Below are positions 154 to 26,846 of a stretch of 38,061 bases of DNA, in pieces. Where the stretch lies: positions 1 to 38,061 of the forward strand of contig MNYV01000177.1 of the NCBI GenBank assembly GCA_001873285.1, read 5' to 3'. Position numbers and translations under genes: made by a program. Source of the stretch: Nitrospirae bacterium CG2_30_53_67. GTDB taxonomy: Bacteria > CG2-30-53-67. The notes under the pieces were generated by a model. It made no database searches and was not told the DNA's origin. It saw nothing but the letters and a program-made list of their open reading frames with translations. The stretch's first letter is position 1. Each line of letters begins with the position of its first letter.

Positions 154-198
154 CCCACTCTTTTGGAGATGAACCCCATTTTTTTAATTGTCTGCACA

Positions 199-227: not shown

Positions 228-290
228 TTAAAAGAATTCAAGTTTTGCAGGGAAACGCTTGCGGCGTATTTTACAAATAAGGAGAAACCT

Positions 291-2195: not shown

Positions 2196-2215
2196 TCCGA
2201 CCGGGAGGAAAAGGC

Positions 2216-2665: not shown

Positions 2666-2756
2666 TCTTATGATGTTCAGGGCTCCAGGAAGGATGATGA
2701 AGGACCTGGTCAATCTTTTCATGTTCCCGTTGGCATGAGAAAGACAAGATGAGAAC

Positions 2757-3665: not shown

Positions 3666-3721
3666 TATGCCTAAGGAATGAAGGGTCAACCGTGGGCAGC
3701 ATGTTGACATCGAGGTGATCT

Positions 3722-6951: not shown

Positions 6952-6981
6952 TTGACATTTCAGGAGATGAGATGATAAAAT
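6952..6981 (+). promoter_or_regulatory. Candidate sigma-70 promoter of the glycan operon
   Basis: A perfect TTGACA (6952-6957), an 18-base spacer and TAAAAT (6976-6981, 5 of 6 to consensus). The predicted start is near 6988, about 250 bases before the first gene. Random matches are more likely in such AT-rich DNA, so it may be a second promoter or a chance hit. Confidence 0.5.
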
Positions 6982-7004: not shown

Positions 7005-7235
7005 AAAAATATTGGCGGTTTTATGTTTTTTTCTTTCCGACGTTTAAGATAATGAATGCTGCCGAAATTGTTTTTAAAAAACATAAAAGTTTAATTTTTT
7101 CATCAAGATAGAGTATGGATCATGTAATTGAGAGGGCGAAGCTGTATCTTAAAGACAGCACACGGAAAAATAAGATCTTGTTAAGTGAACCATTCGCTTT
7201 TAAGGCCGGATGGTTCTTTCATATGGAGCGTATGT

Positions 7236-8999
7236 ATGAAGGCCGTAATTTTAGCAGGTAGTCCAGGAACAGCAATCTTCCCCCTTGCAAACTATTATTC
7301 CAAACTTTCATTTCCCGTAGCCAATGAGCCGATCATTTACCATCTCCTCTCTTTTTTAGAAGCCAGTCATATTTCAGAGGTCATGGTTGTCTTGTCGGGA
7401 CATCCAAGCGGGGGAGGTTCCATAGGCCGTCTATTTAATGATGATCGAATAGAGGGCATGAAGGTCTCGGTCTTTGAAGAAAAGCGGCCGAGGGGAACCG
7501 CGGGATGCTTAAAAGAGGTTGCCGGATTCATAGGATCTTCGCCTTTTCTGGTGATCAGCCCGAACGTATTTACGGGCCATCTTGATTTGTCAGAGGCGTT
7601 TTCAGCTCACCATACCCAGAAGGCTGCGGTTACGGTTGTGGTTGAGAAAAGCAACGGCTTTAAAAAAAGTTTGGAGAATATAGAGGTTGGGAAAGACGGT
7701 CGTATAAAAAGATTTCATATCCTGCATCCGTCACGGGATCAACGGCGGATCCTGCTTCCTGCAGGGTTTTACATCTTTAATCCGATCGTGCTGGATCATA
7801 TTCCCGATAAGGGGTATATGGATATCAAAGAACAACTCATTCCTGAACTGGGCCATAAAGGTTTTCGAATCTACGCGTATGAGCTGTCAAATCCCGTAAA
7901 AAAGCTCGACAGTCTCAGCGATTATTTTCAACTGAACAGGGATCTTCTTTCCAATGGGTTTATGGGCGGCAATCATAACGGGAGTTCCAAAAGTGAGATC
8001 ATGGAAAGGGTCTGGGTTGGTAAGAACGTGAGAATCTCGCCTAAGGCATATTTATTGGGACCTGTGGTCATCGGCAGGAATTGTACCATTGAGGATTATG
8101 CACAAATCATCGGTCCTGCAAGCATTGGAGACGGAACTCGCATTGGGAAGGACGTTCTGGTGCGTGAAAGCATTATTTGGGAGAAAGCGGAATTATCGTC
8201 TAATTCCCGAATAGAGCATAGTCTTATAGGAGAAGAGGTCGTTATCCGGGAAGATGAACGAGTGAAGAATACGATTGTGATTCAGGACAACAGGTTTCAT
8301 CAGAACTTCAATATCTCATCATCAGAGCATGGGCTTGATGGTTTGAATCACTGCGGGACCGATTTGTTCAGCGCGTCTTACAAACGCTGGAAATACGGGG
8401 CTTATCTGATATTCAAAAGGTTGTTTGATCTTTTTGTGTCTTTTTTATGCCTGTTTACTTTTCTTCCGATCTTCCTTATAATAGCCGTCTTGATTAAGAT
8501 CGACTCTCCCGGCCCGATGATATTCAGGCAGAAAAGATGCGGGAAAGACGGGAAAGAATTCAAGATGTACAAGTTCAGAACCATGGTCAAGGATGCAGAG
8601 AAGTTACACGATGAAGTCTTGGGTAAAAACATTTTGGATGGTCCTATGTTCAAGATGAAAAGAGATCCCAGGATAACGAACGTAGGAAGGTTCTTGAGGA
8701 AAACAAGCCTTGATGAGCTTCCCCAGTTGTTCAATGTGCTGAAAGGAGAGATGAGCCTGGTGGGGCCCAGGCCGTTGGCCATGGAGGAAATGAAATTCAG
8801 CCCGAGCTGGAGGGATTTGAGGTTGAAAGTGAAACCCGGCATCACGGGGCAATGGCAGGTCAGCGGCCGAAGCGGAACACTTTTCGATGGCTGGATCAGA
8901 CATGATATAGACTATGTGAAGAATCAGTCCACATGGCTTGACTTGAAGCTCCTGATGAAGACGATTATTATGGTTTTTAAAAGAGAAGGGGCCTTTTGA
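7236..8999 (+). CDS. Nucleotidyltransferase-like/hexapeptide/phosphoglycosyltransferase fusion
   Basis: A 587-residue, three-part protein. Residues 1 to about 240 have the fold of sugar-1-phosphate nucleotidyltransferases (MKAVILAGSPGTAIFPL), but the GGxGTRL loop reads GSPGTAI (Arg to Ala at 13) and the Mg-binding Asp region reads FLVISPN (108-110), so this part looks catalytically impaired. Residues about 255-370 form a left-handed beta-helix of hexapeptide repeats. Residues about 395-587 are a WcaJ/WbaP-type monotopic phosphoglycosyltransferase with a hydrophobic re-entrant helix, the catalytic Asp-Glu pair in SLDELPQ (493-494) and the GPRPL motif, all intact. It should load the first sugar phosphate onto undecaprenyl phosphate at the inner membrane. 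The ATG at 7236 has GGAG seven bases upstream; an upstream GTG at 7185 is unlikely. It abuts the Wza-like gene. Confidence 0.88.
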   Translation: MKAVILAGSPGTAIFPLANYYSKLSFPVANEPIIYHLLSFLEASHISEVMVVLSGHPSGGGSIGRLFNDDRIEGMKVSVFEEKRPRGTAGCLKEVAGFIGSSPFLVISPNVFTGHLDLSEAFSAHHTQKAAVTVVVEKSNGFKKSLENIEVGKDGRIKRFHILHPSRDQRRILLPAGFYIFNPIVLDHIPDKGYMDIKEQLIPELGHKGFRIYAYELSNPVKKLDSLSDYFQLNRDLLSNGFMGGNHNGSSKSEIMERVWVGKNVRISPKAYLLGPVVIGRNCTIEDYAQIIGPASIGDGTRIGKDVLVRESIIWEKAELSSNSRIEHSLIGEEVVIREDERVKNTIVIQDNRFHQNFNISSSEHGLDGLNHCGTDLFSASYKRWKYGAYLIFKRLFDLFVSFLCLFTFLPIFLIIAVLIKIDSPGPMIFRQKRCGKDGKEFKMYKFRTMVKDAEKLHDEVLGKNILDGPMFKMKRDPRITNVGRFLRKTSLDELPQLFNVLKGEMSLVGPRPLAMEEMKFSPSWRDLRLKVKPGITGQWQVSGRSGTLFDGWIRHDIDYVKNQSTWLDLKLLMKTIIMVFKREGAF

Positions 9000-9776
9000 A
9001 TGAGAAACATATTAACGGCTCTTACGGTCTTGATCATGTTATTGATGTTTACGGGGTGTGCAAAAAACAAAACAGCCGTTCATCCTGGCGATATTGAAAA
9101 AAAACAAGAAACTGTTTCGGACGAGAAGCTTAGAGTATCCGAATTTACCCTCGGCCCGGGCGATCAACTGGAGATAACGGTCTGGGGCGTCGAGGATATG
9201 GACAGAAAGATACTGGTCGGCCCGACGGGTTTCATCTCCTATCCGTTTGTTGGGGACATCCAGACGAACGGTATGAGTATATTCCAGTTAAGGGACAGGA
9301 TTGCCGACGGCCTCGCCGACTACTTTCTCAATCCCAAGGTGAGCGTCAATATTTTATCTTCCAAAAGCAAGAAGATCTATGTATTAGGAGAAGTGGTGAG
9401 GCCCGGGATATTCCAGATGACGGGCGCCAACTCATTAATAGAGGCGATCTCCATGGCCGGCGGATTCACCCAGGATGCCAAGGAGCAAAACGTCCTTCTT
9501 GTCCGAGGAGGCCTGGTTGCCCCGGTACTCCGCTCTCTTGATCTTAAAGCGGCCTTGCGGGAAGGGGATTGGTCGCAGAATATTCTGCTTAAAGCGGGAG
9601 ACATCGTCTATATTCCAGCATCGACCTTTGCCGATACGGAACGCTTTTTCAAACGTATTGCGAGTATCATCTCACCTATTGTCAACCTGGAAACAGGCAT
9701 CGTACTCGAACCCACCGTTGAAAATGTCTTCCATGGAGAGGATGTCGGGAACGCAGTGGTCATTACCCCGAAGTGA
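9000..9776 (+). CDS. Wza-like polysaccharide export lipoprotein
   Basis: Outer-membrane/periplasmic export component for capsule or exopolysaccharide. The 258-residue protein starts with a lipoprotein signal (hydrophobic stretch, then FTGC, Cys at 20). A Poly_export domain follows (about 50-125, FTLGPGDQLEITVWGVEDMD and NPKVSVNI), then an SLBB beta-grasp domain (about 125-205, KKIYVLGEVVRPGIFQM). It is shorter than E. coli Wza (379 residues) and lacks its extra repeats and long C-terminal helix, as is usual for the short export proteins of exosortase-type loci. Its ATG directly follows the stop codon of the preceding fusion gene, so the two are translationally coupled, and a Wzc-like partner follows after 102 bases. 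Confidence 0.92.
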   Translation: MRNILTALTVLIMLLMFTGCAKNKTAVHPGDIEKKQETVSDEKLRVSEFTLGPGDQLEITVWGVEDMDRKILVGPTGFISYPFVGDIQTNGMSIFQLRDRIADGLADYFLNPKVSVNILSSKSKKIYVLGEVVRPGIFQMTGANSLIEAISMAGGFTQDAKEQNVLLVRGGLVAPVLRSLDLKAALREGDWSQNILLKAGDIVYIPASTFADTERFFKRIASIISPIVNLETGIVLEPTVENVFHGEDVGNAVVITPK

Positions 9777-9878
9777 TGTAATAAAAGTTTGATATATAGA
9801 TAGGCGTAGTCATATCTTGAAAATGTCATTCAGAGGGTATTTTTTTTTGCATCATCAGGAAAGTGAGACAATAAGCCT

Positions 9879-11963
9879 ATGGAAATGAGAGCATATTGGG
9901 AAATCCTTTTGAGAAGGAAGTGGATCATCATCATATCCGTTTTGCTCTTGCCGCTGCTGACCTTCGTGATTCTCATCCTCTTGCCGCCTGTTTATCAAAG
10001 TAAGGCTAAACTCCTGATCAATTTAACCAACTTCAAGCAGATGTTCATAAAAAATGTGCCTCCACATCTCGGGCAGATTACGTTTACCGATAAGGATAAG
10101 ATCATGAATAGTATTGAGGCGGCCATTGAAAGCACGCCGGTGGTCGGGAAAGTGATCGAAAAGTTGAATCTGCAAGACAGCAAAGGGGACCTGTTGAAAC
10201 TGGATAACTTTATTGACCCTTCGATCACGACCATTCTTTTCAAAAAAAGAGGGGTGGACATTGAAAACATGAGCGCCACGGAGATATTTGAAATCAGGGG
10301 TTACTCTGCGACGGGTTCCGAGGCAAAGCTGATCGCCGATGAGGTGATTCATCATTTCTCAACAGAAATGGCCGACCAATATCGGAGGCAGATGGCGGAA
10401 ATCAGAAAGGTTTTGGAAAAACGGATTATGGAGGTAGAAGTTCAACTGAAAAGGGAGGAAAAAAGCATTGCGGAATTTAAGACCGCTAATCAACTCTATG
10501 ATGTAACGACTCAGACCAGTATGATGATTTCTGAGATCAAGGATCTTGAAACCGAAAGAGACAAGGCCTCGCGTGCGTTTGAGCAGTCCAAGGCGAGTCT
10601 GAAGAATCTGCAGGAGGCCTCATGGCTGAACCAGCAAAATCTTGGAGATATGACTTCTCATCAATCGGACAACACGGTTATCAGTGGTTATAAGGAACAA
10701 TTGGAGAAGCTTGAAACCAGTCTGGCAAAAATGATAAAGGAAAAAACAGATGAGGATCCGGTAGTCAAAATTACGAAGCATCAGATCGATCTTGTGAAAG
10801 AGAATATCAGAAAGGAAATCTCGAAGAATATTGCTTCACAGTTTTCATCCAGGTTGTCTAATTCCTTGGTGACAGGGTCATCATCCTTTTACAACACACT
10901 TTCAACAAGGTATGCAGATATTATCATTTCGTTAGTGGAAATCGAGACCGGGAAGAAGATTCTGGATACCCAGATCAATTCGAAACAGGAGTCGCTTAGA
11001 AATATTACGGAAAAAACGACAAAGTTGAGTGAGTTACAAAGGCGGGCAGATGACTTGAAAACAGTATATAATTCCATATTTCTCGATCTGGAGACCGTGA
11101 GGAACACTTCAGATTTGGACCTGACCAATGCCATGGTTGTTCAGCCGGCAGATCCTGGAAAATATTATTTTCCTCATACGTTTGATGACTATGAAATTTA
11201 TCTTGGGATCGCCGCTGTTGCCGGCATATTTCTGGGAATATTTTTTGCGTTCCTTTACGATTACCTCGATCGTACCCTTAAAACTCTCGATGAAACCAAG
11301 AAGGTCCTCAATCAGGGAATCGTTGTGAAGTTTCCCAAAGTCAAAAGATCGCAATTGAACATTCTTGAAACGACTCAGTCTCCATTTACCGAGCCTATTT
11401 ATAATTTTTTTACACAAGCGAACGGCTTCAGAAATGCGAAAGGCGGACAAGCCATTGCCGTGGTCAGTACATCAGGCAAGGCCGGAAACTCCACTGTGGC
11501 CGTTCACGCCGCGTGCGTCTTGGCTCGTGGGAACAAACGGGTTCTTCTGGTAGACGGTAACCTGCGCGGGCCCGTTCTCCATGAGGCATTCAATATACCC
11601 AACGATAAGGGGCTCAGCGACTATCTTTTAAACGGCCTGGCGGCCCAGGATATTGTCAGTAAAACGTTTGAAAACAATCTGGATATGATTACGGCCGGTT
11701 CGGTATGGATGGAGAGCCCTCAGATCCATCTGCAATCCAAGAAATTTGAAAAGCTTCTTGAAGAGATGTTGAAGCTCTATGATTTCATATTGTTCGATAC
11801 CCCGCCTTTTTCATCCGGCGCTGATGGATTGATCATATCCATTTATGCACGAAAGGTCATATTAGTCGTCAGACAAGGTCGAACCCCTCAGAAAGCAGCC
11901 AAAGAACTGGTGAATATGCTTGAAAAGGAAAATGCCGCAGTATGGGGCGTTGTGGTCATATAA
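9879..11963 (+). CDS. Wzc-like chain-length/co-polymerase protein with degenerate BY-kinase domain
   Basis: Inner-membrane polysaccharide co-polymerase of 694 residues. It has a Wzz domain with a first membrane helix (about 15-37), a long periplasmic region with coiled coils (about 165-400), a second membrane helix (about 440-462), then a cytoplasmic CpsD/BY-kinase-like domain (about 520-694). In that domain the Walker A loop reads SGKAGNST: the position of the catalytic Lys in PGEGKST is Asn537. Walker A' reads LLVDGNLRGP, where D-A-D is typical. Walker B (ILFDTPP) is kept. There is no Tyr cluster at the C-terminus. Chain-length control is likely; autophosphorylation is doubtful. A GGAAAGTGAG ribosome site precedes ATG. 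Confidence 0.88.
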   Translation: MEMRAYWEILLRRKWIIIISVLLLPLLTFVILILLPPVYQSKAKLLINLTNFKQMFIKNVPPHLGQITFTDKDKIMNSIEAAIESTPVVGKVIEKLNLQDSKGDLLKLDNFIDPSITTILFKKRGVDIENMSATEIFEIRGYSATGSEAKLIADEVIHHFSTEMADQYRRQMAEIRKVLEKRIMEVEVQLKREEKSIAEFKTANQLYDVTTQTSMMISEIKDLETERDKASRAFEQSKASLKNLQEASWLNQQNLGDMTSHQSDNTVISGYKEQLEKLETSLAKMIKEKTDEDPVVKITKHQIDLVKENIRKEISKNIASQFSSRLSNSLVTGSSSFYNTLSTRYADIIISLVEIETGKKILDTQINSKQESLRNITEKTTKLSELQRRADDLKTVYNSIFLDLETVRNTSDLDLTNAMVVQPADPGKYYFPHTFDDYEIYLGIAAVAGIFLGIFFAFLYDYLDRTLKTLDETKKVLNQGIVVKFPKVKRSQLNILETTQSPFTEPIYNFFTQANGFRNAKGGQAIAVVSTSGKAGNSTVAVHAACVLARGNKRVLLVDGNLRGPVLHEAFNIPNDKGLSDYLLNGLAAQDIVSKTFENNLDMITAGSVWMESPQIHLQSKKFEKLLEEMLKLYDFILFDTPPFSSGADGLIISIYARKVILVVRQGRTPQKAAKELVNMLEKENAAVWGVVVI

Positions 11964-11972
11964 CCAATTATC

Positions 11973-12932
11973 ATGATAATTCGAGAGAATTTTGCAAGGG
12001 ATGTCCTAAGGCTGATCGTCTGGTATCCCGTAAGATGGATGGTTAGAATGGCTCCCCTGAAATACTCCCTGAATGTCTTAAGAGGGATGGGCGACCTTCA
12101 TTATTTTTTGTCAAGGGGGAAGAGGGCCGCCCTATTGAATAACCTGAAAATGATTTTCCGAGATCCGGCGAAGACCGGAACAAATTTTTTTCCTCATACA
12201 ATAAGGGAGTATTTCAGAAACCATTATGTGAACCGGCTGCATATCTTTCTTTTCCCGAGACTCAATAAAAAAAACATTGATCAGGTCCACACCTTCGAGG
12301 GGATGGATCACTTGAATAAGGCCCTTGCCTTGGGGAGGGGCTGTATATTGCTTCACCCCCATTTCGGGCCCTTGTTCCTGCCCGTCCATGCCCTGGGACT
12401 GGAAGGCTATCCCGTGGCGGCGCTCCTGCTGACGATCAATGAGGGATTAAGTTTCATGGGAAGGCATATTGCCTATAAGTTACGTGTAAAATATGAGAAG
12501 AAGATGAAGGCCCATCTGATTTATGCGGATTCGTTTTTAAGGCCTTTATTCCAATGTCTGAAACAAAACATGGTGGTTTTTTCAATCGGAGACGGCTCTG
12601 ACGGCGGAAGACGCCTGGGCAAATTTGCCGAAAGAGAATTTTTAGGGAAGAAAATGCTGTTTCCACGCGGCCCCGCGCTCCTTTCAAAGAAAACAGGCGC
12701 GCCGATCATCCCCATTTTTACGGTTCTTCAGGAGGATGGCCGCTACAAGACGACCATCCATGAGCCGATCAACTTGAATTCCGATGCCAGCGAAGATGAG
12801 ATCGCTTCCATATTTATAGCAAAGATGGAGTCTTATGTGCAAAGATACCCGCACCTCTGGCATTTCTGGGATGAGTTTGAAGAGAGGATCCGCTGCAATA
12901 TGAACCATTCAAACGATCAGGCCGTTCAATGA
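11973..12932 (+). CDS. LpxL/HtrB-like acyltransferase family protein (first copy)
   Basis: A 319-residue member of the lauroyl/lysophospholipid acyltransferase family. Typical members transfer an acyl chain from acyl-ACP or acyl-CoA to lipid A or a glycolipid at the inner membrane. The core shows GRGCILLHPHFGPLF (120s-135) and later a conserved basic FPRGPALLSKKTGAPIIPIF segment. Known members have H-x4-E/D (often HxGNWE). Here the His is 130 but the acid position is Phe135, so catalysis is uncertain or uses another residue. The stop overlaps the flippase start (ATGA, 4 bases), implying coupling. A second relative lies at 20783. The gene context suggests acylation of the glycan or its lipid carrier, not of lipid A. 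Confidence 0.8.
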   Translation: MIIRENFARDVLRLIVWYPVRWMVRMAPLKYSLNVLRGMGDLHYFLSRGKRAALLNNLKMIFRDPAKTGTNFFPHTIREYFRNHYVNRLHIFLFPRLNKKNIDQVHTFEGMDHLNKALALGRGCILLHPHFGPLFLPVHALGLEGYPVAALLLTINEGLSFMGRHIAYKLRVKYEKKMKAHLIYADSFLRPLFQCLKQNMVVFSIGDGSDGGRRLGKFAEREFLGKKMLFPRGPALLSKKTGAPIIPIFTVLQEDGRYKTTIHEPINLNSDASEDEIASIFIAKMESYVQRYPHLWHFWDEFEERIRCNMNHSNDQAVQ

Positions 12933-14377
12933 ATCAAGTCAGAAAGATAGCAAAAAATTCCTTTTTTGTTCTGACCGCCAGGGTGATGGAAGCCGTTTTC
13001 AACCTTCTCATCATGACGCAGATCGCCCGCTACCTTGGAATTGACGGTTTTGGGGTTTATTCCCTTGTGCTTGCCGTTGCCTGGGTCTTATCTCCCATGC
13101 TCTTTCTCGGATTAAATCAGATCCTTGCAAGAGACGTTGCTGTAGACAGGGGAAGGACATCGGATCTGCTCGGGAACGCCCTGGTTCTGAACCTGCTGAT
13201 GGTCATCCCTGTGATGGTTTGCACGATGCCGGTCATTTATATGTTTGGAATGGACAGAGTCTCCATCATCGCTCTCTTGATCTCAATAGGTTATTTCATT
13301 ATCGATGCTTTTGTTAGAAACTTTTTCGGAGTGATCATTGCTTTTGAGGAGATGAAATACCTGGCATGGATCACACTGATCAATGTCTTGACCGAGCTGG
13401 TATTGGTTCTGCTCGTCGTTCATTTTGATCTTGGGTTTCTCAGCATCTTTCTTGCGTCGGGCTCCGCCGGTCTGATCAGCCTCTTTGCCTGTCTGCTGTT
13501 GTTCAAGAAGCATTTTCTGCTGCCCAGGATACGAATTCATTTCAAAAAGCTTTATGATCTCTTCGTGACCTGCCTGCCGCTCATGATCTCTCTTTTTCTG
13601 ATCAACGGCTTTCTTTATGTAGACGTCTTTGTGCTGAAATTTATGGGGAGTAATGCCGATGTCGGACTTTTCCAGGCGCCGCATAAGATATTGATGAGAA
13701 TGCAGGTGCTGCCGATGGCTTTTTTTGTAGTCCTTCTTCCGGTTTTCTCCCGTCTTGCGCAAACAAACGAGACCCTTAAAAATTTCAGGAAGCTATATGC
13801 AAAAACCTTCAAGATGACGTTGATCTTCGCCCTCCCGATTACCGTTGTCGGGGTTGCCTTTTCTGATCAAATCGTCTTCTTTTTATTCGGCCTGGAATTT
13901 GCCGGGTCGGGTTTATCCCTATCCATACTTCTGTGCGCATTCCCCTTCCTCTGTCTTACGACCCTCTGCAGGTATTTGTTGATCGCACTAAAAAAGCAGA
14001 AGCTGGTCATGTTTTCCGACGGGGTTTGCCTGCTGACCAATTTCGTTTTGGATATTATTTTAGTGCCTCGATTTGGATTCATCGGCGCCAGTTTTGGAAC
14101 CTTATTCGCACTGGTTATTCAGTCTCTCACAAACTACGTCCTTCTCTCAGAACATTCGCGTGACGTCTCCTGGCTGGAAACCGTTCTTGCACCCGTCGCC
14201 GCTGCTGTTATATTTGTCTTGTTCTTATTCGGGACAGGCAGAGAGGATCATATGATCCTGCTCCCGGTGGGCATGGCCCTCTATATCGGAACGTTATTTA
14301 TTTCCAAGGGATTTTCATCGGAAGATATGAGCTGCATCAAAAAAATATTAAGTTATAAAAAGGGCCTTCAGAAGTGA
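12929..14377 (+). CDS. Wzx-like oligosaccharide flippase (MATE/PST superfamily)
   Basis: Integral membrane protein of 482 residues with about 12-14 hydrophobic helices spread along its length. It opens with the typical N-terminus of the polysaccharide transporter family: IAKNSFFVLTARVMEAVFNL, then ARYLGIDGFGVYSLVLA. It should move the undecaprenyl-linked repeat unit from the cytoplasmic to the periplasmic face of the inner membrane. The gene starts inside the end of the acyltransferase gene (4-base ATGA overlap). The locus also has a phosphoglycosyltransferase, a ligase/polymerase and an export pair, so it fits a Wzx/Wzy-type pathway. Confidence 0.92.
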   Translation: MNQVRKIAKNSFFVLTARVMEAVFNLLIMTQIARYLGIDGFGVYSLVLAVAWVLSPMLFLGLNQILARDVAVDRGRTSDLLGNALVLNLLMVIPVMVCTMPVIYMFGMDRVSIIALLISIGYFIIDAFVRNFFGVIIAFEEMKYLAWITLINVLTELVLVLLVVHFDLGFLSIFLASGSAGLISLFACLLLFKKHFLLPRIRIHFKKLYDLFVTCLPLMISLFLINGFLYVDVFVLKFMGSNADVGLFQAPHKILMRMQVLPMAFFVVLLPVFSRLAQTNETLKNFRKLYAKTFKMTLIFALPITVVGVAFSDQIVFFLFGLEFAGSGLSLSILLCAFPFLCLTTLCRYLLIALKKQKLVMFSDGVCLLTNFVLDIILVPRFGFIGASFGTLFALVIQSLTNYVLLSEHSRDVSWLETVLAPVAAAVIFVLFLFGTGREDHMILLPVGMALYIGTLFISKGFSSEDMSCIKKILSYKKGLQK

Positions 14378-14424
14378 TATGCATAACCTGTGAAAACTTA
14401 TAGACAGGAGGTTTGAATCCAAGT

Positions 14425-15762
14425 ATGAACATCGTCATCTTATTAATCGATGCACTGAGGGCCGATCACCTGGGATGTTACAGGTATCCCAAGAAGACTT
14501 CCCCGCATATGGATCGTATTGCCGAGAAAAGCGCTTTATTCGAAAACGCCATATCCCAGACCAACTGGACGCTCCCTTCTCTATACTCCCTGATGACGGG
14601 GAGGTATCCATCGAGCCTGCAGATTTCATGGTGGGATCAGAAAATCAATGAGAAATTTACCGTGCTTCCTCAACTCCTCGCGGAGAATGGATATCATACG
14701 GGTTTATATACCCCCTTTAAGGCGCTCCTCAATCCCAAGTCTTTTTGCAGCCACTTCCATGAGACCAGACAAATCAAGACTCAGGATCATATCCCTGCGG
14801 TCATGAAGGACTGGGTGAAACGGCATGAGCATTCCTTTTTGCTCTTTCACATCGGGGAGTACGTCCATGAGCCCTTTTTTGCAGACAAGAAATATGTAAG
14901 CATGTTTTTGGATGATGATATTGATGCTGAGAAGATATCCGGATCAAACGTCATAGATTCATTAACATCAAGAACCAGCGCATTCAAGAATATACGAAAA
15001 CTCATCATGAAGATTAATGCCGGAATGATCAGGCTTTCAAAGGCAGAGATCCAATATCTCATGAGCGCGTATGATGCCGGTATTTTCTGCGTTGATGAGA
15101 TGGTCGGACAAATTTACAATGTGATGAGGGAGCAGAGCAAAGACTATCTTTTTATCATCACGGCGGACCATGGGCAGGCGTTTATGGAGCACAACTTTTT
15201 CGGGCATGGGTTGTCGCTCTATGAAGAGCTGATCCATGTACCGCTGATCGCCGATTTCAACGGCAGGCATTCCCTGCGGGTCCCGGATCCGGTTCAGTTA
15301 ATGGATTTGTGTCCGACGATCCTGGACTTGCTGAAACTCTCTCCTAAAAGCCCGTTGAATGGGGACTCGCTGATGCCGCTTCTGAACCACCACCGCTTCC
15401 CCGACAGGGGATGCATCTCCGAAAGTTATCCATACCTGTCCTTGAGAAAAGCCGATTATAAACTGATCACCAAGCACACCAGGCTTGCAAACGCTGATGA
15501 GATTTTCAACCCGGTTGAAAAATCCTGGAAGAAGAAATTATTGACAAGATTTCTACATTATCTTCCGGACAAGCTGTTCAATTTAAATGAAGATCCCGGC
15601 GAAAGACACAATATCAGGCGAAGGGAGCCTGCGGTCTATGGGACTCTTGTGGCGGAGATCAACGAGATTGCGAAGCGTTTCAACACGGAGGACCTGCGGC
15701 CGGAAGAGGTCGGCATAGATGAAGAAATCAAAAAACAGTTGATCGATCTCGGATATTTGTAA
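14425..15762 (+). CDS. Sulfatase-like alkaline-phosphatase-superfamily protein, no signal peptide
   Basis: A 445-residue metal-dependent hydrolase or transferase of the sulfatase/alkaline-phosphatase superfamily. Metal ligands are visible in ILLIDALRADHLG (Asp9) and ITADHGQAFMEHNFFGHG. The nucleophile region reads NWTLPSLYSLMTGRYP: Thr49 stands where true sulfatases have Cys or Ser in CxPxR. So it is not a formylglycine sulfatase; a phosphodiesterase or phosphotransferase of the Thr type is more likely. It lacks an export signal or membrane helix, so it seems cytoplasmic. The ATG at 14425 is preferred over TTG at 14413, which lies only one base after GGAGG. It ends in IDLGYL, much like the protein at 19072. 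Confidence 0.83.
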   Translation: MNIVILLIDALRADHLGCYRYPKKTSPHMDRIAEKSALFENAISQTNWTLPSLYSLMTGRYPSSLQISWWDQKINEKFTVLPQLLAENGYHTGLYTPFKALLNPKSFCSHFHETRQIKTQDHIPAVMKDWVKRHEHSFLLFHIGEYVHEPFFADKKYVSMFLDDDIDAEKISGSNVIDSLTSRTSAFKNIRKLIMKINAGMIRLSKAEIQYLMSAYDAGIFCVDEMVGQIYNVMREQSKDYLFIITADHGQAFMEHNFFGHGLSLYEELIHVPLIADFNGRHSLRVPDPVQLMDLCPTILDLLKLSPKSPLNGDSLMPLLNHHRFPDRGCISESYPYLSLRKADYKLITKHTRLANADEIFNPVEKSWKKKLLTRFLHYLPDKLFNLNEDPGERHNIRRREPAVYGTLVAEINEIAKRFNTEDLRPEEVGIDEEIKKQLIDLGYL

Positions 15763-15815
15763 TAATATATAAATTTTAAGCCGTATTCTTCATTCAGATG
15801 CAAGCGGGGGAAGAC

Positions 15816-17558: not shown

Positions 17559-17576
17559 TGATGGGAATATCCGCCG

Positions 17577-19085: not shown

Positions 19086-20748
19086 AAACAAGACAAAAGT
19101 CATGGTGATCGGCTTTGACGGGGCATCACTCAATGTCCTGCTGCCGATGATTCAAAAAGGTAAACTACCCCATTTTGCATCAATCATGGCATCCGGAGTC
19201 TCCGGAAAGCTGAGGAGCATCATCCCCCCCATATCCGGTCCCGCATGGACGACCTTTGCAACCGGTGTTTATCCCGGCATGCACGGTATTTATGATTTTT
19301 TCCGGAATCTCCAAGAGAACTATGCATGCACACCAATAAACAGTTCTTTCATCCCGCTGAAGACCCTATGGGAAATCCTCTCGGACCAGGGGAAAAAAGT
19401 AGGCGTCATGAACATGCTCTTTTCCTACCCTCCCCAGAGAGTCAACGGATTTGTGGTTTCCGGGAGGGGGACGCCGAATGAGAATGTGAAATATGCATAT
19501 CCTGAACGGATCAAAGATGAAATCCTGGATTTTGAACCCCATTACCGAATAGAGGCTTACAGACAGATCTCCATGACCGGACACTTTCTGAAGCTCCTTG
19601 TGGATCAGTTGAAATGTCAGGAGCGGGTGAACCAATATTTATTCCGGAAATATTCTTGTGATTTTACCATGTCTTATTTTGCGGTACCGGACCTTATCCA
19701 GCATATATTCTGGAAATATATGGATCCAACTCATCCGAATCACGATCATCAGGATGCGAAACGGCTGCTCCCTTTGATCGAAGGCTGCTATCAAGTGCTG
19801 GATGATATCCTTTCCGAGAGATTGAAGATGATGGATGAAGATACGATCTTGATCGTCGTATCCGACCATGGGGCCGGTCCTCTGCACAAAATGGTTCAGA
19901 TCAACAAATGGCTTCAGGACGCGAAGCTCCTCTTCCTCAAAGAGGAATACAATAAAAAGGGTACCTTGAGATCCTTGCTCATGCTGAACAAGCTTCTTAA
20001 GGGGCTGATCAGCATCACCTCAAAGGTGGACATCTTAGGCCTGAGAAGGCTGATCGGCTTCAAGACAAGAGAGAAAAGAATGTTATACAGCAAGCATAAA
20101 TTCATAGATTGGTCCAGGACCAAGGCCTATGCCGGAAGGCTTGCGGAGTGCGGGATCCATGTCAATCTCAAAGGCCGGGAAGGCGGGGGGATCGTTGAGA
20201 GCGGCGATGAATATGAAAAGATCCGGGAATTCATCATCTCCAATCTTTCAGAACTGAAAGATCCCCAGACCGGGGAGAAGGTTTTCGAAAAAATATGGAA
20301 AAGGGAGGATCTTTATCGAGGTCCCTATGTTTCCCATGCGCCCGACCTTATCCTTGATTGCGGAGACCGTCCTTATGCGGCGAATGACAGCTTGTGGTCA
20401 AACGAATTGCTGGAGAAGGTTCCCAAGAGCGGCGTCACAGGGATGCACAGAAATGACGGTATCATCATGGCCTTGGGCAAAGGGATCAAGAAGGGAGCGA
20501 AGATACAAGGCGCGGGCCTTTCTGATCTGGCGCCGACCATCTTGTCTCTGATCGGAGCGGAGATCCCGGCTTATATGGAGGGAAAGGTTCTTACCGATCT
20601 GATGGTTTCCCCCTCTCAGGCGGCAAGAAAGCCGTCGGGTAAGGGTTGGGATCGTCCGCAGGCGCCGGAGGAAAAAGAAAAAGTCATCTATTCCGAAGAA
20701 GAATCCGAAGACATCAGCAAACGCTTGAAAGACCTTGGATACCTTTAG
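19072..20748 (+). CDS. AlkP-superfamily phosphodiesterase/phosphohydrolase (COG3379-like)
   Basis: A 558-residue protein of the type I phosphodiesterase/nucleotide pyrophosphatase branch of the alkaline phosphatase superfamily. It opens with KVMVIGFDGASLNVL (metal ligand Asp16), followed by the nucleophile segment ISGPAWTTFATGVYPG (Thr60). Later ligands are in SYFAVPDLIQHIFW and VVSDHGAGPL, and TGMHRNDGIIMA is typical of COG3379. There is no signal peptide or membrane helix. The substrate is unknown; a phospho-linked sugar or lipid intermediate is plausible from context. A charged linker near 515-545 leads to the end KRLKDLGYL, which matches the end of the protein at 14425. The start overlaps the ligase gene by 14 bases. 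Confidence 0.86.
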   Translation: MEQNKNKTKVMVIGFDGASLNVLLPMIQKGKLPHFASIMASGVSGKLRSIIPPISGPAWTTFATGVYPGMHGIYDFFRNLQENYACTPINSSFIPLKTLWEILSDQGKKVGVMNMLFSYPPQRVNGFVVSGRGTPNENVKYAYPERIKDEILDFEPHYRIEAYRQISMTGHFLKLLVDQLKCQERVNQYLFRKYSCDFTMSYFAVPDLIQHIFWKYMDPTHPNHDHQDAKRLLPLIEGCYQVLDDILSERLKMMDEDTILIVVSDHGAGPLHKMVQINKWLQDAKLLFLKEEYNKKGTLRSLLMLNKLLKGLISITSKVDILGLRRLIGFKTREKRMLYSKHKFIDWSRTKAYAGRLAECGIHVNLKGREGGGIVESGDEYEKIREFIISNLSELKDPQTGEKVFEKIWKREDLYRGPYVSHAPDLILDCGDRPYAANDSLWSNELLEKVPKSGVTGMHRNDGIIMALGKGIKKGAKIQGAGLSDLAPTILSLIGAEIPAYMEGKVLTDLMVSPSQAARKPSGKGWDRPQAPEEKEKVIYSEEESEDISKRLKDLGYL

Positions 20749-20782
20749 AGGTCCAATTTTAGATGGATTGAAATCATCATCA

Positions 20783-21718
20783 ATGAAAAAAATTATTGAT
20801 CTCATCATATGGTTCGTATGGTTCCCGTTAAGGGATTTCCTGCTTTTAACACCACATCGCGTAAAACATTTCATTCTTGGCTTTTGTGCGGCCTTATTCT
20901 ATCTGGCAGATTCCAGAAGAAGAAATGGTGTTAAAGAGGAAGTTCAATTGCTGTATGGGTCCCGTTTTAACAAAAAAGAGATTAACAGAATCGCCAGATC
21001 AAGTTTTGATCATTTTTTCAACAGGCTGTTCGAAAATCTTTATTACGGCCGGATTGATGCGGAATATTTCAACAGGATTGCTTCCATAGAGGGTCTCGAT
21101 CACCTGAAAACCGCGTTACAAAAGAATAAAGGGGCGCTTCTGATACAATTCCATTTCGGATCCTTTCTGCTGATCCTCCTTGCTCTTGCTTTTCAAGGGA
21201 TCAGGGTGAACGCCTTTGCAGGGGCTCCTCTGAAAGGAGAAGGGTATATAAAAAAGAAACTGGTTGAATTAAGGAATCATGAAAGGGAGACCTATCCTTT
21301 CGGCGTCCTGACCATCCGGTCTTCGCTTCTTCCGGTCGTAAAGGCATTGAAGAAGAACGAAGTGATAGGAGTGACGATTGACGGGAGGCAGGGAACAAAT
21401 TTTATTCCGATCAGATTATTCGAGCGGACTGCTCTCTTTTCAACGGGCCTGATAGATTTGAGCATCAGAACAGGCGCTCCGATTCTGCCCCTTGCCGTTG
21501 TGAGGGGCAAAGATAAAAAACAGAGGGTCATCATTGAACCCGAGATGGAACTTATAAAAAGTGATGACAGGGAGGAGATGCTGCGGTTGAATCTTGAAAA
21601 GTATATCAGAAACTATGAGAAATATTTACTGAACCATCCTGATCATATGGCGATGACTTTATATAGTATGAGGGAAGAAGTAAGGAAGGGAATCAATTCA
21701 CCCCTTTTTATAGATTGA
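20783..21718 (+). CDS. LpxL/HtrB-like acyltransferase family protein (second copy)
   Basis: A 311-residue member of the same acyltransferase family as the protein at 11973, with similar order of motifs: a hydrophobic N-terminus (IIDLIIWFVWFPLRDFLLL), SIEGLDHLKTAL, then GALLIQFHFGSFLLI, and RTGAPILPLAVV near the end. The expected H-x4-E/D is H124-FGSF-L129, so the acidic partner is missing here too. The ATG at 20783 begins the family-like hydrophobic segment; the upstream TTG at 20735 would overlap the previous gene. The ribosome site is weak. It lies one base before the GT9 gene. It may put a second acyl chain on the same glycolipid, which is inference. Confidence 0.78.
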   Translation: MKKIIDLIIWFVWFPLRDFLLLTPHRVKHFILGFCAALFYLADSRRRNGVKEEVQLLYGSRFNKKEINRIARSSFDHFFNRLFENLYYGRIDAEYFNRIASIEGLDHLKTALQKNKGALLIQFHFGSFLLILLALAFQGIRVNAFAGAPLKGEGYIKKKLVELRNHERETYPFGVLTIRSSLLPVVKALKKNEVIGVTIDGRQGTNFIPIRLFERTALFSTGLIDLSIRTGAPILPLAVVRGKDKKQRVIIEPEMELIKSDDREEMLRLNLEKYIRNYEKYLLNHPDHMAMTLYSMREEVRKGINSPLFID

Positions 21719-21719
21719 A

Positions 21720-22865
21720 ATGTATAAGATTATAAACAAGAAAAAGCTTGCGGCTACCATTGCAGCGGATGCCATTGGAAAAATTATCTTTCTGCCAAAG
21801 CTGCTGTCCAGAAAAAGCAGGAAAATCATGGATAACGGGATCAGGGATATCCTGGTCATCCGGACTGCCTATATTGGTGATGTTGTGATGACAATGCCCA
21901 TTCTGAAACCATTGAAGGAAAAATTTCCAGGATCAAGGATCTCTTTTCTCACATCAACTCCAGCAGGAGAAGTTCTGAAAAACAACCCTTATCTGGACGA
22001 TGTGATCACATACGATCCCTTCTGGTTTTACCCTACTCAGAAAAAAAAGTATCTTGAATTTATTAAAGCGCTGAAAAAAAGATCATTTGACCTGGTGATT
22101 GAGTCCCGGGGCGATATCAGGGAATTGCTGTTTCTGGTCTGGCCATTGAAGGCAAAGTTCAAGCTGAGTTACGATTTCGGCGGCGGGGGTTATCTTTTAA
22201 CGGATATTGTTCCTTATAACGGGTTGAAACACAAGGTTGAATATCATTTTGATATGATCAGATACCTTGGCTGTGATATCGGAGATCTCGACTGGGGAGT
22301 CTATCTTACAGAAGGGGAAAAAAATAAGGTCAGAGAGATTCTTGAGAAGAATTCAATCAGAAAACCTTTTATTTCCGTGCACCCCGGGGCAAGAATCCCT
22401 CTGAAGAGATGGATGACTGATCGGTACGCTAAATTATGTGACCGGCTTATTGAGGATTATGGTTTACCGCTCATTGTGCTTGGGGCTAAAGGAGAAAGAG
22501 ACATCGTTGATGAAATACTGAGGGAAATGAGACACAGACCGACAGATCTTGTTGGGGCACTGACTCTCAGAGAGCTTTCAGGAATCTTGTCGGAGTCGGC
22601 TCTTTTCATCTGCAATGACAGCTCGCCGATGCATATCGCTGCATCAATGAAAACCCCAACCGTTGCAATTTTCGGGCCGTCGAAAAGCGTCGAAACGGCC
22701 CCATACGGGAACGTGAACAGGATTGTTGAAAAAGATTACCCATGCAGATGCCATTGTGATGAAAGCTCTTGCCATAATAAACGATTTCATGGCTGCATGA
22801 GAGACATTGAAGTGGAGGATGTCCTTTCAGCAGTTGGAGAAATTACAAAGGAATTGAGATTGTAA
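21720..22865 (+). CDS. Glycosyltransferase family 9 (heptosyltransferase-like)
   Basis: A 381-residue cytoplasmic GT-B enzyme related to ADP-heptose:LPS heptosyltransferases. After a basic, partly hydrophobic extension (1-37) the domain begins with DILVIRTAYIGDVVMTMPIL. It later shows ISVHPGARIPLKRW (donor-binding part) and the GT9 signature FICNDSSPMHIAASMKTPTVAIFGPS. A Cys-rich segment (CRCHCDESSC, then GCMRDIE) near the C-terminus is common in this family. It probably adds a heptose or other sugar to the lipid-linked or core oligosaccharide. It follows the second acyltransferase by one base and overlaps the DUF362 gene by one base (TAATG), so all three are likely coupled. Confidence 0.9.
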   Translation: MYKIINKKKLAATIAADAIGKIIFLPKLLSRKSRKIMDNGIRDILVIRTAYIGDVVMTMPILKPLKEKFPGSRISFLTSTPAGEVLKNNPYLDDVITYDPFWFYPTQKKKYLEFIKALKKRSFDLVIESRGDIRELLFLVWPLKAKFKLSYDFGGGGYLLTDIVPYNGLKHKVEYHFDMIRYLGCDIGDLDWGVYLTEGEKNKVREILEKNSIRKPFISVHPGARIPLKRWMTDRYAKLCDRLIEDYGLPLIVLGAKGERDIVDEILREMRHRPTDLVGALTLRELSGILSESALFICNDSSPMHIAASMKTPTVAIFGPSKSVETAPYGNVNRIVEKDYPCRCHCDESSCHNKRFHGCMRDIEVEDVLSAVGEITKELRL

Positions 22866-24136
22866 TGTTCAGATTCGATGCACTAAATGTATATAACACC
22901 AAAGATTTAAAACCTGGGATTAAAAAATTGCTCCTGGGCAAGTATGGCGATCTCCTGCCGTCGGACAGAAATGCAAAGATCCTAATCAAACCCAATTTGA
23001 ACAGCAATATGAACGCGCTGACCGGCAACACCACGGATCTCAGGCTCTTGTCGGCAGTCATTGAGCTTTTGAAAGAGAATGGTTATCAGGACATCACCAT
23101 TGGAGAAGGAACAAACAGCGGGTTTTATAGGAATAACATCAGCGTGATCAGTCGATTGAAGGTTGATGCTCTGGCTGACTACTATGATGTCTCAGTGAAG
23201 GATTTAAACTATTCCAAGACCGTGGAGGTCGAATTTGAGAAAGGTGTCAAGGCGGGTGTTGCAAAAGAATGCATGGAAGCCGATCTCTTCATCAATATGC
23301 CGAAACTCAAGACCCATTTTGAGAACGGCATGAGTGTATGCCTGAAGAACCTTATGGGGTGCCTGGTAGGCCAGGAAAACAAGAAGAAGACCCATCAATC
23401 CCTTGAAGCGAACATTCTCAATATCAATAAATTTCTAAAGCCCCATCTTCATATCGTGGACGCGATCTTCTCCATGGAAGGCCTCGGCCCCACCCGCGGA
23501 ACGCCCGTCAAGACCGGAATGGTTCTCATCGGGACAGACCCCTATTTAATAGATCTGATGTGTGCCAAGTTCGCTTCTTTTAATCATAAAAAAGTCAGAA
23601 CCCTCGTGGAGTCGGAGAAAAGAGGGATTGTGAATTCGCAGTACCACAAATTTGTGAATGAATTTCAGTTTGAAAAACTTTTCAAATTCGCACCGCCTAA
23701 AGCCGGACCCATAGCGACTTTCATCCACAGCCCCAAAAGGCAGAGATACTTTCTTGCCGTGAGGAACACACCGGTTTTCAACTTCTTATGCTCGACCGAA
23801 CTGGGCGGGAAATTGTTATACCGTACAGGGTTGAGGCAGGATGTCTTTATCAAGGACGAGATGGAATGCACAGGCCTCTCGGTCGACATGAAGCGGTGCA
23901 CGCAATGCGGGAAATGTTCTGATTATTGTCCTTCGGGTTTAACCCTGCCGGACGTCCTTGCAGAGGAAGGAGAATTAAATCCAAAGGGAAATCGGGGTAA
24001 GAAATGTTTATTCTGTTTATACTGTTTCTGCGTCTGCCCTGAGAATGCAATTTTGTTTCACGGCAAACTCGGTTTCATGGAAGAGCAGATGAAACAGTAC
24101 GGAGAGATCATCAAGAAGATCGTCAGAGAGGAATAA
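22865..24136 (+). CDS. DUF362 protein with two C-terminal [4Fe-4S] clusters
   Basis: A 423-residue protein. The N-terminal two-thirds (about 30-300) is a DUF362 domain, seen in ILIKPNLNSNM, the GEGTNSGFYR segment, and INMPKLKTHFENGMSVCLKNLMG. The C-terminal part (from about 340) is a bacterial ferredoxin domain with CTQCGKCSDYCP and CLFCLYCFCVCP, each fitting C-x2-C-x2-C-x3-C for one 4Fe-4S cluster. No signal peptide is seen. The biochemical role of DUF362 is poorly known; a redox or electron-supply role is suggested by the clusters. It overlaps the GT9 gene by one base, and a radical SAM gene follows after 36 bases, a possible partner that needs electrons. Confidence 0.88.
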   Translation: MFRFDALNVYNTKDLKPGIKKLLLGKYGDLLPSDRNAKILIKPNLNSNMNALTGNTTDLRLLSAVIELLKENGYQDITIGEGTNSGFYRNNISVISRLKVDALADYYDVSVKDLNYSKTVEVEFEKGVKAGVAKECMEADLFINMPKLKTHFENGMSVCLKNLMGCLVGQENKKKTHQSLEANILNINKFLKPHLHIVDAIFSMEGLGPTRGTPVKTGMVLIGTDPYLIDLMCAKFASFNHKKVRTLVESEKRGIVNSQYHKFVNEFQFEKLFKFAPPKAGPIATFIHSPKRQRYFLAVRNTPVFNFLCSTELGGKLLYRTGLRQDVFIKDEMECTGLSVDMKRCTQCGKCSDYCPSGLTLPDVLAEEGELNPKGNRGKKCLFCLYCFCVCPENAILFHGKLGFMEEQMKQYGEIIKKIVREE

Positions 24137-24172
24137 CGGTTCCTAAAATAATATGAGAGGGGAATAATCGCC

Positions 24173-25624
24173 ATGAAGATACTTTTATTGAATCCGCCTT
24201 TTTTAGAACATTTCTCCCGTCCGCAGCGAAGTCCTGCCGTGACCAAGAGCGGGACGCTCTATTTCCCCATGTGGCTGGCCTATGCGGCAGGGGCGCTCAT
24301 CGAGAACGGCTTTGAAGTCGATCTGGTTGACGCCCCGGCGGACGGTTACAGCATAGATGATATCGTTGATCGGGTGAAGAAATTTCAGCCGCATCTGATG
24401 GTCTTGGAAACCAGCACGCCGAGCATTTATAATGACGTCGCTGTCGCCGGCAGATTGAAAGACTTATTGCCCTCTTCGTTCATCATCTTGGTGGGCACCC
24501 ATGTGTCAGCCCTTCCTGGGGAGAGTCTGAAAATCGATTCGAGAGTGGATGCTGTGACAAGATATGAATATGATTATACCCTTCTGGACCTCGCGAAAAA
24601 ATTGGAGAGAAAGGGAGATTTAAAAGAGGTTTCAGGCATCAGTTTCAGGGCCGACGGGAAAATCATTCATAATCCTCTCAGGCCGCACATAGAAAACCTC
24701 GATGAATTACCGTTCGTGAGCCGCGTGTACAAGAAGTTTCTCAACATAGAAAACTATTTCAATCCCAATGCCCTCTATCCCATGGTCACCATCACAACAA
24801 GCAGAGGCTGTCCTTTTCCCTGTGTATTCTGTGTTTATCCCCAGACCATGATGGGGAAGAAGTTCCGGTTAAGAAGCATTGAGAATGTGGTGGCTGAAAT
24901 GAAATATATTGTTGATGAATTCCCCCAGGCCAAGGCCATTTTTTTTGAGGATGACACCATCACGGCCAATAAGAAGCGCTGCAAGGAATTCGCCGAACTG
25001 ATTTTGAAGGAAGGCGTCAAGATATCCTGGACGGCCAATGCGAGGGTGGGGCTGGATTATGAGACCATGCTCCTGATGAAGAAAGCAGGCTGCCGGTCTT
25101 TATGCGTGGGATTTGAAAGCGGGAGCCAAAGGATCTTGGATAATATGAAGAAAAAGATCAAACTGGAAGAGATGGAGCAGTTCATGCAGGATGCAAAAAA
25201 GTCCGGCATCCTGATTCACGGCTGCTTTATGGCTGGGCTTCCCGGAGAAGACCGGGAGACCATGAACGAGACGCTCGAACTGGCAAAAAGGCTGAATCCC
25301 GATACGGTACAGTTCTACCCGGTCATGGTCTATCCGGGAACCGAGGCCTATGATTGGTACAAGACGAGAGGCTTGATCGCCACGGATGATTTTTCCAAAT
25401 GGATCACGCCTGAGGGGCTGCATAACACGGTGATCAGGACCGAGGATGTCCCCTCCAGGGAACTTGTAAAATTCTGTGATGATGCGAGACGATCTTTTTA
25501 CCTCAGGCCGAGTTATATGATTTACAAGCTTGGACAGATGATGGCTCATCCCAGAGAGATCAAGAGAACCGTAAAATCCGCCAGGACATTTTTTAAATAT
25601 CTTCTAAAAGGTTCCGACATATAA
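24173..25624 (+). CDS. B12-binding-type radical SAM protein (RSMT/BchE-like)
   Basis: A 483-residue cytoplasmic enzyme. The N-terminal region (about 1-150) has a cobalamin-binding Rossmann fold (MKILLLNPPFLEHF, IILVGTHVSALP) but no DxHxxG, so any cobalamin would bind without the histidine ligand. The radical SAM core starts at about 205 with RGCPFPCVFC (Cys213, 217, 220), the CxxxCxxC that holds the 4Fe-4S cluster, followed by FFEDDTITANKKR and LCVGFESGSQRIL. Members of this class methylate or rearrange unactivated carbons in lipids, hopanoids and antibiotics. In this operon it may modify a sugar or a lipid chain; the substrate cannot be read from sequence. GAGAGGGGAA lies before the ATG. Confidence 0.9.
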   Translation: MKILLLNPPFLEHFSRPQRSPAVTKSGTLYFPMWLAYAAGALIENGFEVDLVDAPADGYSIDDIVDRVKKFQPHLMVLETSTPSIYNDVAVAGRLKDLLPSSFIILVGTHVSALPGESLKIDSRVDAVTRYEYDYTLLDLAKKLERKGDLKEVSGISFRADGKIIHNPLRPHIENLDELPFVSRVYKKFLNIENYFNPNALYPMVTITTSRGCPFPCVFCVYPQTMMGKKFRLRSIENVVAEMKYIVDEFPQAKAIFFEDDTITANKKRCKEFAELILKEGVKISWTANARVGLDYETMLLMKKAGCRSLCVGFESGSQRILDNMKKKIKLEEMEQFMQDAKKSGILIHGCFMAGLPGEDRETMNETLELAKRLNPDTVQFYPVMVYPGTEAYDWYKTRGLIATDDFSKWITPEGLHNTVIRTEDVPSRELVKFCDDARRSFYLRPSYMIYKLGQMMAHPREIKRTVKSARTFFKYLLKGSDI

Positions 25625-25642
25625 GCGTGATCCGGATTTGTC

Positions 25643-26620
25643 ATGATCGAATATTCAGTCATTGTTCCGGCATATAATGCCGTCTCCACCCTGGATGGTT
25701 GTCTCAACGCCTTGCTCAACCAGTCCATCAGCAAGGAGCGCTACGAAGTCATCGTGATTGACGACGGATCCACGGACAGGACGGCGGATCAGGTGAAAAA
25801 CTATCCGGTAAGATACCTATATCAGAAAAACCATGGGCCTGCAACGGCCCGGAATACGGGCGTGAAAGAGGCCATAGGTCACATCGTTCTTTTTACGGAT
25901 TCGGACTGTGTACCGGATGTCCACTGGATCAGAGAGATGGTCCGTCCATTCGATGACAAAGAGGTTGCGGCTGTGAAAGGGGCTTACCGGACCCGGCAAA
26001 AAAGTCTCACGGCCAGATTTTCTCAGATGGAGTTTGAGGAAAGATTTGCGATGCTTAAAAAGGCCGGAACCATTGATATGGTGGACACGTATTCAGCGGG
26101 ATTTCGCAAAGAGATATTCTTGAAAATGGGCGGTTTCGATATCAGCTTTCCCGCAGCCAACAATGAAGACACGGAGTTTTCCTACAGGATGTCTAAGCTG
26201 GGTTATCGGATGGTTTTTAATCCTGACGCCATTGTCTATCATTTGAATCATCCTGATACGATTCGTAGATATGCGAGACTCAAATTTTGGAGAGGTTATT
26301 GGCGCATGGTGGTCTATAAAAGATTTCCGGATAAGATGCTCAAAGACACATATACGCCGCAGACTTTGAAACTGCAGATCCTGTTTCTCTTCCTTGTTTT
26401 TGCATGTTTGCCGTTTACAGTTTTATTCCGTCCGCTGGGTTTATATGCTTTGTTTTTTTCGGCAATCCTTCTAAGTGTGTTTCTTCTTCCCTTTACCCTG
26501 TTCGCCTTTAAGAAGGATCCGTTCATCGGCGCCGCGGCCCCGTTCTTTCTGTTGGTCAGGGCGGCCTCGCTGGGGTTGGGGATGTTGAGGGGCATGGGCG
26601 GGGGCACGCGGAAGATTTGA
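25643..26620 (+). CDS. Glycosyltransferase family 2 with C-terminal membrane helices
   Basis: A 325-residue GT-A enzyme. The domain opens with YSVIVPAYNAVSTLDGCLNALLNQ and VIVIDDGSTDRTADQV, followed by GPATARNTGV and the metal-binding FTDSDCVPD (a DxD-like site). A second conserved block is GFDISFPAANNEDTEFSYRM, whose ED pair suits the catalytic base. Two or three hydrophobic helices (about 240-310) anchor it in the inner membrane. It probably adds a sugar to a lipid-linked glycan. It begins 18 bases after the radical SAM gene and is the last clear gene of the glycan operon. Confidence 0.92.
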   Translation: MIEYSVIVPAYNAVSTLDGCLNALLNQSISKERYEVIVIDDGSTDRTADQVKNYPVRYLYQKNHGPATARNTGVKEAIGHIVLFTDSDCVPDVHWIREMVRPFDDKEVAAVKGAYRTRQKSLTARFSQMEFEERFAMLKKAGTIDMVDTYSAGFRKEIFLKMGGFDISFPAANNEDTEFSYRMSKLGYRMVFNPDAIVYHLNHPDTIRRYARLKFWRGYWRMVVYKRFPDKMLKDTYTPQTLKLQILFLFLVFACLPFTVLFRPLGLYALFFSAILLSVFLLPFTLFAFKKDPFIGAAAPFFLLVRAASLGLGMLRGMGGGTRKI

Positions 26621-26735: not shown

Positions 26736-26846
26736 TCAATCTTCGGTAAACCATGCATCTTTGAATAAGATGGCAGATGAGGTCCAATATTATTTTAGGA
26801 AGTAGGAGAAACAGAGAATTATTTAACGAGGAAAAGGAGGTTGATG

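Follow-up and report, generated by a model that had tools for sequence, protein, structure and literature searches.

The contig MNYV01000177.1 of Nitrospirae bacterium CG2_30_53_67 (assembly GCA_001873285.1) was analyzed over its complete length of 38,061 bp, hereafter the window; the source genome is about 95% complete and belongs to a small phylum (eight genomes sampled). The window carries an island of 14 glycan genes, the last of which encode a GT9 glycosyltransferase, a DUF362 protein fused to a ferredoxin, a B12-binding radical SAM enzyme (rSAM) and a membrane GT2 glycosyltransferase. Comparison with other genomes shows that GT2, rSAM and DUF362-ferredoxin, with a DMSO-reductase-family molybdopterin protein (MoOR) and usually GT9, form a conserved module that is distributed over several phyla and often lies within a Wzx/Wzy island. 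The interpretation to which we give somewhat better than even chances is that of a Wzx/Wzy surface-glycan island that has moved horizontally and contains an anaerobic module for the deoxygenation or ring contraction of a lipid-linked hexosamine.

In the window, the core genes follow each other on the + strand: the heptosyltransferase-type GT9 (21720..22865; PF01075), the DUF362 protein fused to a 2[4Fe-4S] ferredoxin (22865..24136; DUF362 and Fer4), rSAM (24173..25624; B12-binding and Radical_SAM domains) and GT2 (25643..26620; three C-terminal transmembrane-like segments). Scanning genome contigs with the DUF362 protein yielded six loci (56-69% identity), to which whole genomes added a further two. 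Surveys with a profile of the DUF362 subfamily found it in 2 of 8 genomes from the phylum of the window, 1 of 4 from that of genome G049, 10 of 395 from the Desulfamplus phylum and 14 of 296 Nitrospirota (here, the phylum of the Thermodesulfovibrionales genome). Thirty DUF362-positive genomes from several phyla were compared, including a cable bacterium (Electrothrix), Desulfamplus magnetovallimortis and an oral Desulfobulbus, and the neighborhoods were examined about 20 kb on either side of DUF362 where the contigs permitted. DUF362 adjoins rSAM or is one open reading frame away from it in 26 of these genomes and GT2 adjoins rSAM in 20, with GT9 (present in 20/30) usually just upstream. GT2 itself was found in 28/30 positive genomes vs 0/46 sampled negatives. 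Beside these near-universal DUF362, rSAM and GT2 genes, LpxL-like acyltransferase genes occur at 17 of the 30 loci, a phosphodiesterase (PDE) of the alkaline phosphatase (AlkP) superfamily at eight and a sulfatase-fold gene of the same superfamily at two. The constant core is thus GT2, rSAM and DUF362-ferredoxin, usually with GT9, and not the acyltransferases or the AlkP enzymes. The earlier note on this DNA had proposed looking for the same gene set in other lineages, and it was indeed found: 13 of the 14 window genes occur in identical order in a second phylum, in the Nitrospirota genome G729, where the examined stretch stops before the position of the remaining gene, the phosphoglycosyl transferase (PGT). 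The G729 locus additionally holds MoOR and a pair of AMP-ligase and Zn-dehydrogenase genes. The presence of the core in several phyla and its co-occurrence with MoOR show that the gene set is more than a chance assemblage.

MoOR is absent from the window and neighbors the core in many other loci (L037:13699-15810, L031:7955-10069, L033:5616-7736, L035:10963-13086 and L100:11816-13939). Among the 296 Nitrospirota it is found in precisely the 14 genomes that have DUF362, usually on a different contig (Fisher 3e-24). In the Desulfamplus phylum, strict MoOR homologues are present in 7/10 DUF362 genomes vs 2/385 others (Fisher 1.5e-11), strict meaning at least 950 bits, a cut placed at a visible score gap which leaves common paralogues at 634-761 bits uncounted. 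Both tests assume independent genomes, and kinship among the genomes makes the p-values overstate the strength of the association. By our own tally MoOR is present in 26/30 positive genomes, two of these sequences being fragments at contig ends. The unlinked MoOR genes come after a Wza-like gene in seven genomes, which ties MoOR to glycan export. Its best PDB match is acetylene hydratase (2e7z, 443 bits, nearly full length), with which it shares the [4Fe-4S] Cys motif and a Cys at the expected metal-ligand position; MoOR is not known to have a characterized close relative. A His directly follows the second Cys in 10/10 MoORs, and in an unaligned comparison it appears to replace Asp13 of acetylene hydratase, a residue next to the Fe-S cysteines. 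No twin-Arg signal was detected on MoOR, which by its sequence is predicted to be cytosolic. No link between acetylene hydratase and exopolysaccharide was found in the open-access literature.

The rSAM has the B12-binding domain and the CxxxCxxC core of B12-dependent radical SAM enzymes, with C213, C217 and C220 invariant. The best NCBIfam model for every core rSAM tested, at 394-435 bits, is HpnJ (TIGR03471), of which the rSAM is a sister, and a weak match to TIGR04072 was also recorded; the best PDB match, both by profile and by fold (fold model pLDDT 72), is AprD4, at 20% identity over the fold alignment and 95-125 bits against an NCBIfam cut-off of 500. HpnJ converts bacteriohopanetetrol glucosamine into a cyclitol ether (PMC12583986). 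The title of the AprD4 structure indicates that it was solved with its substrate paromamine. HpnJ and AprD4 both act on hexosamine (glucosamine-type) sugars. The hopanoid hpnI-hpnK-hpnJ cassette, for the bacteriohopanetetrol cyclitol ether, likewise pairs a B12 radical SAM enzyme of this branch, acting there on lipid-linked glucosamine, with a glycosyltransferase; the island differs in having no visible deacetylase and in adding DUF362-ferredoxin and MoOR. Squalene-hopene cyclase scores above its cut-off in just 3/30 positive genomes and not in that of the window, so hopanoids are unlikely and a hopanoid role of the rSAM was rejected. AprD4 is an aminoglycoside radical SAM diol dehydratase that requires a reductase partner, AprD3. 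Homologues of AprD3 were not identified here, where the partners are instead DUF362 and MoOR. No signal-like segment was found on rSAM or DUF362. Arrays of extra B12 radical SAM genes (rSAM_b and rSAM_c), related to the core rSAM yet distinct from it, lie near the core in L035:1-3853, L087, L086 and L082.

All the probability-1.00 structure matches of the DUF362 model (pLDDT 89) are LarA enzymes, the lactate/malate racemases, and DUF362 and LarA belong to the same Pfam clan, CL0471 (PMC11770544). The motif H151-x9-K161-x15-H177 is invariant in 29/29 sequences and has the 10/16 spacing of H174, K184 and H200 in LarA1, respectively the catalytic histidine, the cofactor-binding lysine and the nickel ligand (PMC11770544). 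Unlike LarA, DUF362 is fused to a ferredoxin, the eight cysteines of which are invariant across the DUF362 proteins. The low TM-scores (about 0.26-0.36) indicate a different domain arrangement, and the position of H108, the second catalytic His of LarA, is occupied by Leu, Phe or Cys according to a weak alignment (E = 0.048). In the pathway favored below, a nickel-pincer nucleotide would probably be bound in the LarA-like domain. Other DUF362 proteins (L004-L025) also retain H-x9-KN, and their final His is usually closer by one residue; the recurrence of H-x9-KN...H in DUF362 proteins generally suggests that the LarA-type cofactor site may be family-wide. No report of DUF362 with radical SAM and ferredoxin was found in the open-access literature.

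The island has a third-codon-position GC content (GC3) of 0.45-0.60, vs 0.66-0.71 in the flanks. The trees of DUF362 and of rSAM both place the window apart from its congener G001, in a separate clade, that of G001 being strongly supported, and the sister of the window differs between the two trees (G063 versus G049, with moderate support). This discordance and the GC3 contrast point to horizontal movement and mixing of the components.

The island runs from 7185 (GTG) or 7236 (ATG) to 26620. The same-strand, tightly packed arrangement described in the earlier note was confirmed (spacing of -14 to +102 bp, four overlaps), as were its family assignments, with which Pfam and NCBIfam scans agree. 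PGT, Wza, Wzc, Wzx and Wzy lie in a single operon by Pfam, as expected of a Wzx/Wzy-dependent polysaccharide locus. The first gene (7185..8999, +; alternative ATG at 7236) encodes an NDP-sugar nucleotidyltransferase/hexapeptide protein fused to a monotopic PGT (PF02397, PF00483, PF25084), whose DE motif SLDELPQ is intact and which is predicted to start the lipid-linked glycan. Long proteins resembling this fusion also occur in G049, G065 and G565, and no report of a PGT-nucleotidyltransferase fusion was found in the open-access literature. It is followed, also on the + strand, by a Wza-like outer-membrane export lipoprotein (9000..9776; Poly_export, SLBB) and a Wzc-like regulator of chain length whose AAA domain is of the tyrosine-kinase type (9879..11963; Wzz and AAA_31). 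A pair of Zn-dependent dehydrogenase and AMP-ligase genes lies by Wza/Wzc in five to six loci (including L032:10938-13656, L034:13248-15907 and L101:16742-19395), and no such pair separates Wza from Wzc in the window. The Wzx flippase (12929..14377, +; PF01943), the Wzy polymerase of O-antigen-ligase fold (17577..19085, +; PF04932, Wzy_C) and a secreted PslG/GH39-like glycosidase of 586 aa (15798..17558, +) are also encoded. The glycosidase alone has no Pfam match; a PDB profile search leads to PslG, the alignment retains the NE and E catalytic positions (E340 and E444), and the GH39 match comes from a gene of a neighboring locus. Altogether the island resembles Psl and other Wzx/Wzy exopolysaccharide loci in its PGT, Wza, Wzc, Wzx, Wzy and PslG-like glycosidase, and differs from them by its anaerobic redox core, its cytosolic AlkP pair and its LpxL-like pair.

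The two LpxL-fold acyltransferase-like proteins (11973..12932 and 20735..21718, +; PF03279) lack the acid of the HX4(D/E) dyad; the first retains HFG at 130-132. The acid is missing and the His kept in 19/19 aligned LpxL-like proteins, whereas the solved homologue 5kn7 has an acid in that column. A plain LpxL/LpxM acyltransferase function was consequently rejected for both island proteins, their dyads being incomplete. In the sulfatase-fold AlkP protein (14413..15762, +; PF00884) the motif is TLPSL (TYPSV in the ortholog) and not the formylglycine motif C/S-x-P-x-R. With a Thr nucleophile replacing the formylglycine Cys/Ser, a plain sulfatase function was rejected, and the protein probably acts on phosphate esters. 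The other AlkP protein is an NPP-type PDE (19072..20748, +; PF01663, Phosphodiest) with a complete and invariant set of two-metal ligands in the alignment (D16, D207, H211, D265, H266 and H459). As the earlier note had stated, no signal-like N-terminal hydrophobic segment was found on either AlkP protein, and both appear from their sequences to be cytosolic, unlike the periplasmic EptA-type decorators. That note had read the product as an acylated and phospho-decorated lipid-linked glycan. A conserved glycan system is indeed present, but acylation and phospho-decoration are not its defining trait: the LpxL-like proteins lack the catalytic acid, the AlkP proteins look cytosolic and these genes are the least conserved, so that this reading is weakened to a possible one.

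Immediately upstream of the island lies a DnaK-Hsp20-DnaJ-ClpB chaperone cluster (93-6376). An AT-rich gap of 800 bp lies between the two and includes an inverted repeat that is long but imperfect (6719-6742/6860-6883). The gap also contains a promoter-like site (6952..6981, +; 11/12 match, TGn), which is a consensus match only, such sites occurring in about chance number. A search of Rfam and riboswitches for control of the operon gave no match. An S8 subtilase with a fervidolysin-type prodomain (26841-28472) starts 220 bp 3' of the operon and is followed by a strong terminator-like site at 28913; it was left out of the island because its GC3 (0.68) resembles that of the flanks. No match to exosortase or PEP-CTERM families was found in the 14 genes and this downstream gene (some other flanking open reading frames were unscanned), in agreement with the earlier note.

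In the pathway that we favor, the nucleotidyltransferase-PGT fusion would initiate an undecaprenyl-linked sugar, to be lengthened by GT9 and the membrane GT2. At the cytosolic face, the rSAM would abstract a hydrogen from a hexosamine, leading either to the removal of a hydroxyl, as in AprD4, or to ring contraction, as in HpnJ. DUF362-ferredoxin would give electrons and/or hydride, setting the oxidation state or stereochemistry, and the cytosolic MoOR may work in the same pathway. This modification would precede export. The cytosolic AlkP enzymes could trim phosphoesters on intermediates, Wzx would flip the glycan and Wzy polymerize it, Wzc and Wza would act in export and the PslG-like glycosidase might trim the polymer. 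The analysis shows which genes are present, how they are conserved and co-occur, and what folds and motifs their proteins have; the substrate and the chemistry we only infer. Several points weigh against this pathway. The core rSAMs score 389-442 bits, under the HpnJ equivalog cut-off of 577.6, and relatives of the rSAM exist without DUF362. LarC is equally common in negatives and positives (23/30 vs 25/30), which makes its co-occurrence uninformative on nickel-pincer use. In four of the 30 positives, namely the genome of the window (best match 31%, completeness about 95%), G077, G326 and G458, MoOR was not found and would therefore be dispensable, lost or unassembled. Finally, the four-gene core stands alone, apart from Wzx/Wzy, in several Nitrospirota genomes, and the acceptor may therefore differ from a Wzy polymer.

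Other scenarios may explain the same locus. One possibility, which we hold to be quite unlikely, is that the product of the core is a special membrane lipid or acyl chain, ladderane- or hopanoid-like, which LpxL-type enzymes attach, the glycan genes being secondary. The rSAM family does include lipid enzymes (weak TIGR04072 match), LpxL-like genes are found at over half of the loci, AMP-ligase and Zn-dehydrogenase genes are close to the core in five to six of them, and an AMP-ligase and a FAD oxidoreductase separate rSAM from GT2 in G001 and G701. Nevertheless, the nearest families, HpnJ and AprD4, act on sugars, the core contains two glycosyltransferases, the LpxL-like proteins are without the catalytic acid and hopene cyclase was not found in 27/30 genomes. 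Alternatively, the core could modify a sugar of the lipopolysaccharide core or of a glycolipid instead of a Wzy polymer. The GT9 heptosyltransferase family and the LpxL fold are typical of lipopolysaccharide synthesis, and GT9-DUF362-rSAM-GT2 cassettes occur without Wzx/Wzy nearby; yet Wza and MoOR are adjacent in those very genomes, and Wzx, Wzy and Wzc adjoin the core in most long loci. We consider this option slightly more doubtful still.

The island could also be an ordinary Wzx/Wzy exopolysaccharide locus that carries the redox genes only incidentally, since its export and polymerase genes are all standard and the accessory genes differ between loci, the LpxL and AlkP genes being patchy. 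This explanation, already disfavored, is the one that we find least probable: DUF362, rSAM and GT2 are found together in one phylum after another, also outside Wzx/Wzy loci, and the co-occurrence with MoOR is perfect in the Nitrospirota sample although the genes are mostly unlinked.

No report of a radical SAM enzyme with a molybdopterin oxidoreductase in Nitrospira exopolysaccharide was found in the open-access literature, nor anything relevant on B12 radical SAM enzymes with exopolysaccharide, AlkP and acyltransferase. The product of the surface-glycan pathway, whose rSAM and DUF362-ferredoxin are unusual enzymes sensitive to oxygen, would probably be a chemically rare sugar, apparently undescribed so far. 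A bolder version, rather unlikely in our view, is a mobile anaerobic pathway in which GT2, a new rSAM of the HpnJ/AprD4 branch, a ferredoxin-coupled nickel-pincer DUF362 and a molybdo/tungsto-enzyme yield a carbasugar or deoxy-sugar in an exported glycan; the nickel-pincer enzymes would then include a second class, redox-coupled and represented by DUF362 (PF04015). The co-occurrence unites in one pathway DUF362-ferredoxin, a radical SAM family sister to HpnJ and a molybdoenzyme of the acetylene hydratase branch, three families that had no settled function in this setting. The module points to an exported glycan with a radically rearranged or deoxygenated sugar, and PF04015 gains a candidate cofactor, the nickel-pincer nucleotide.

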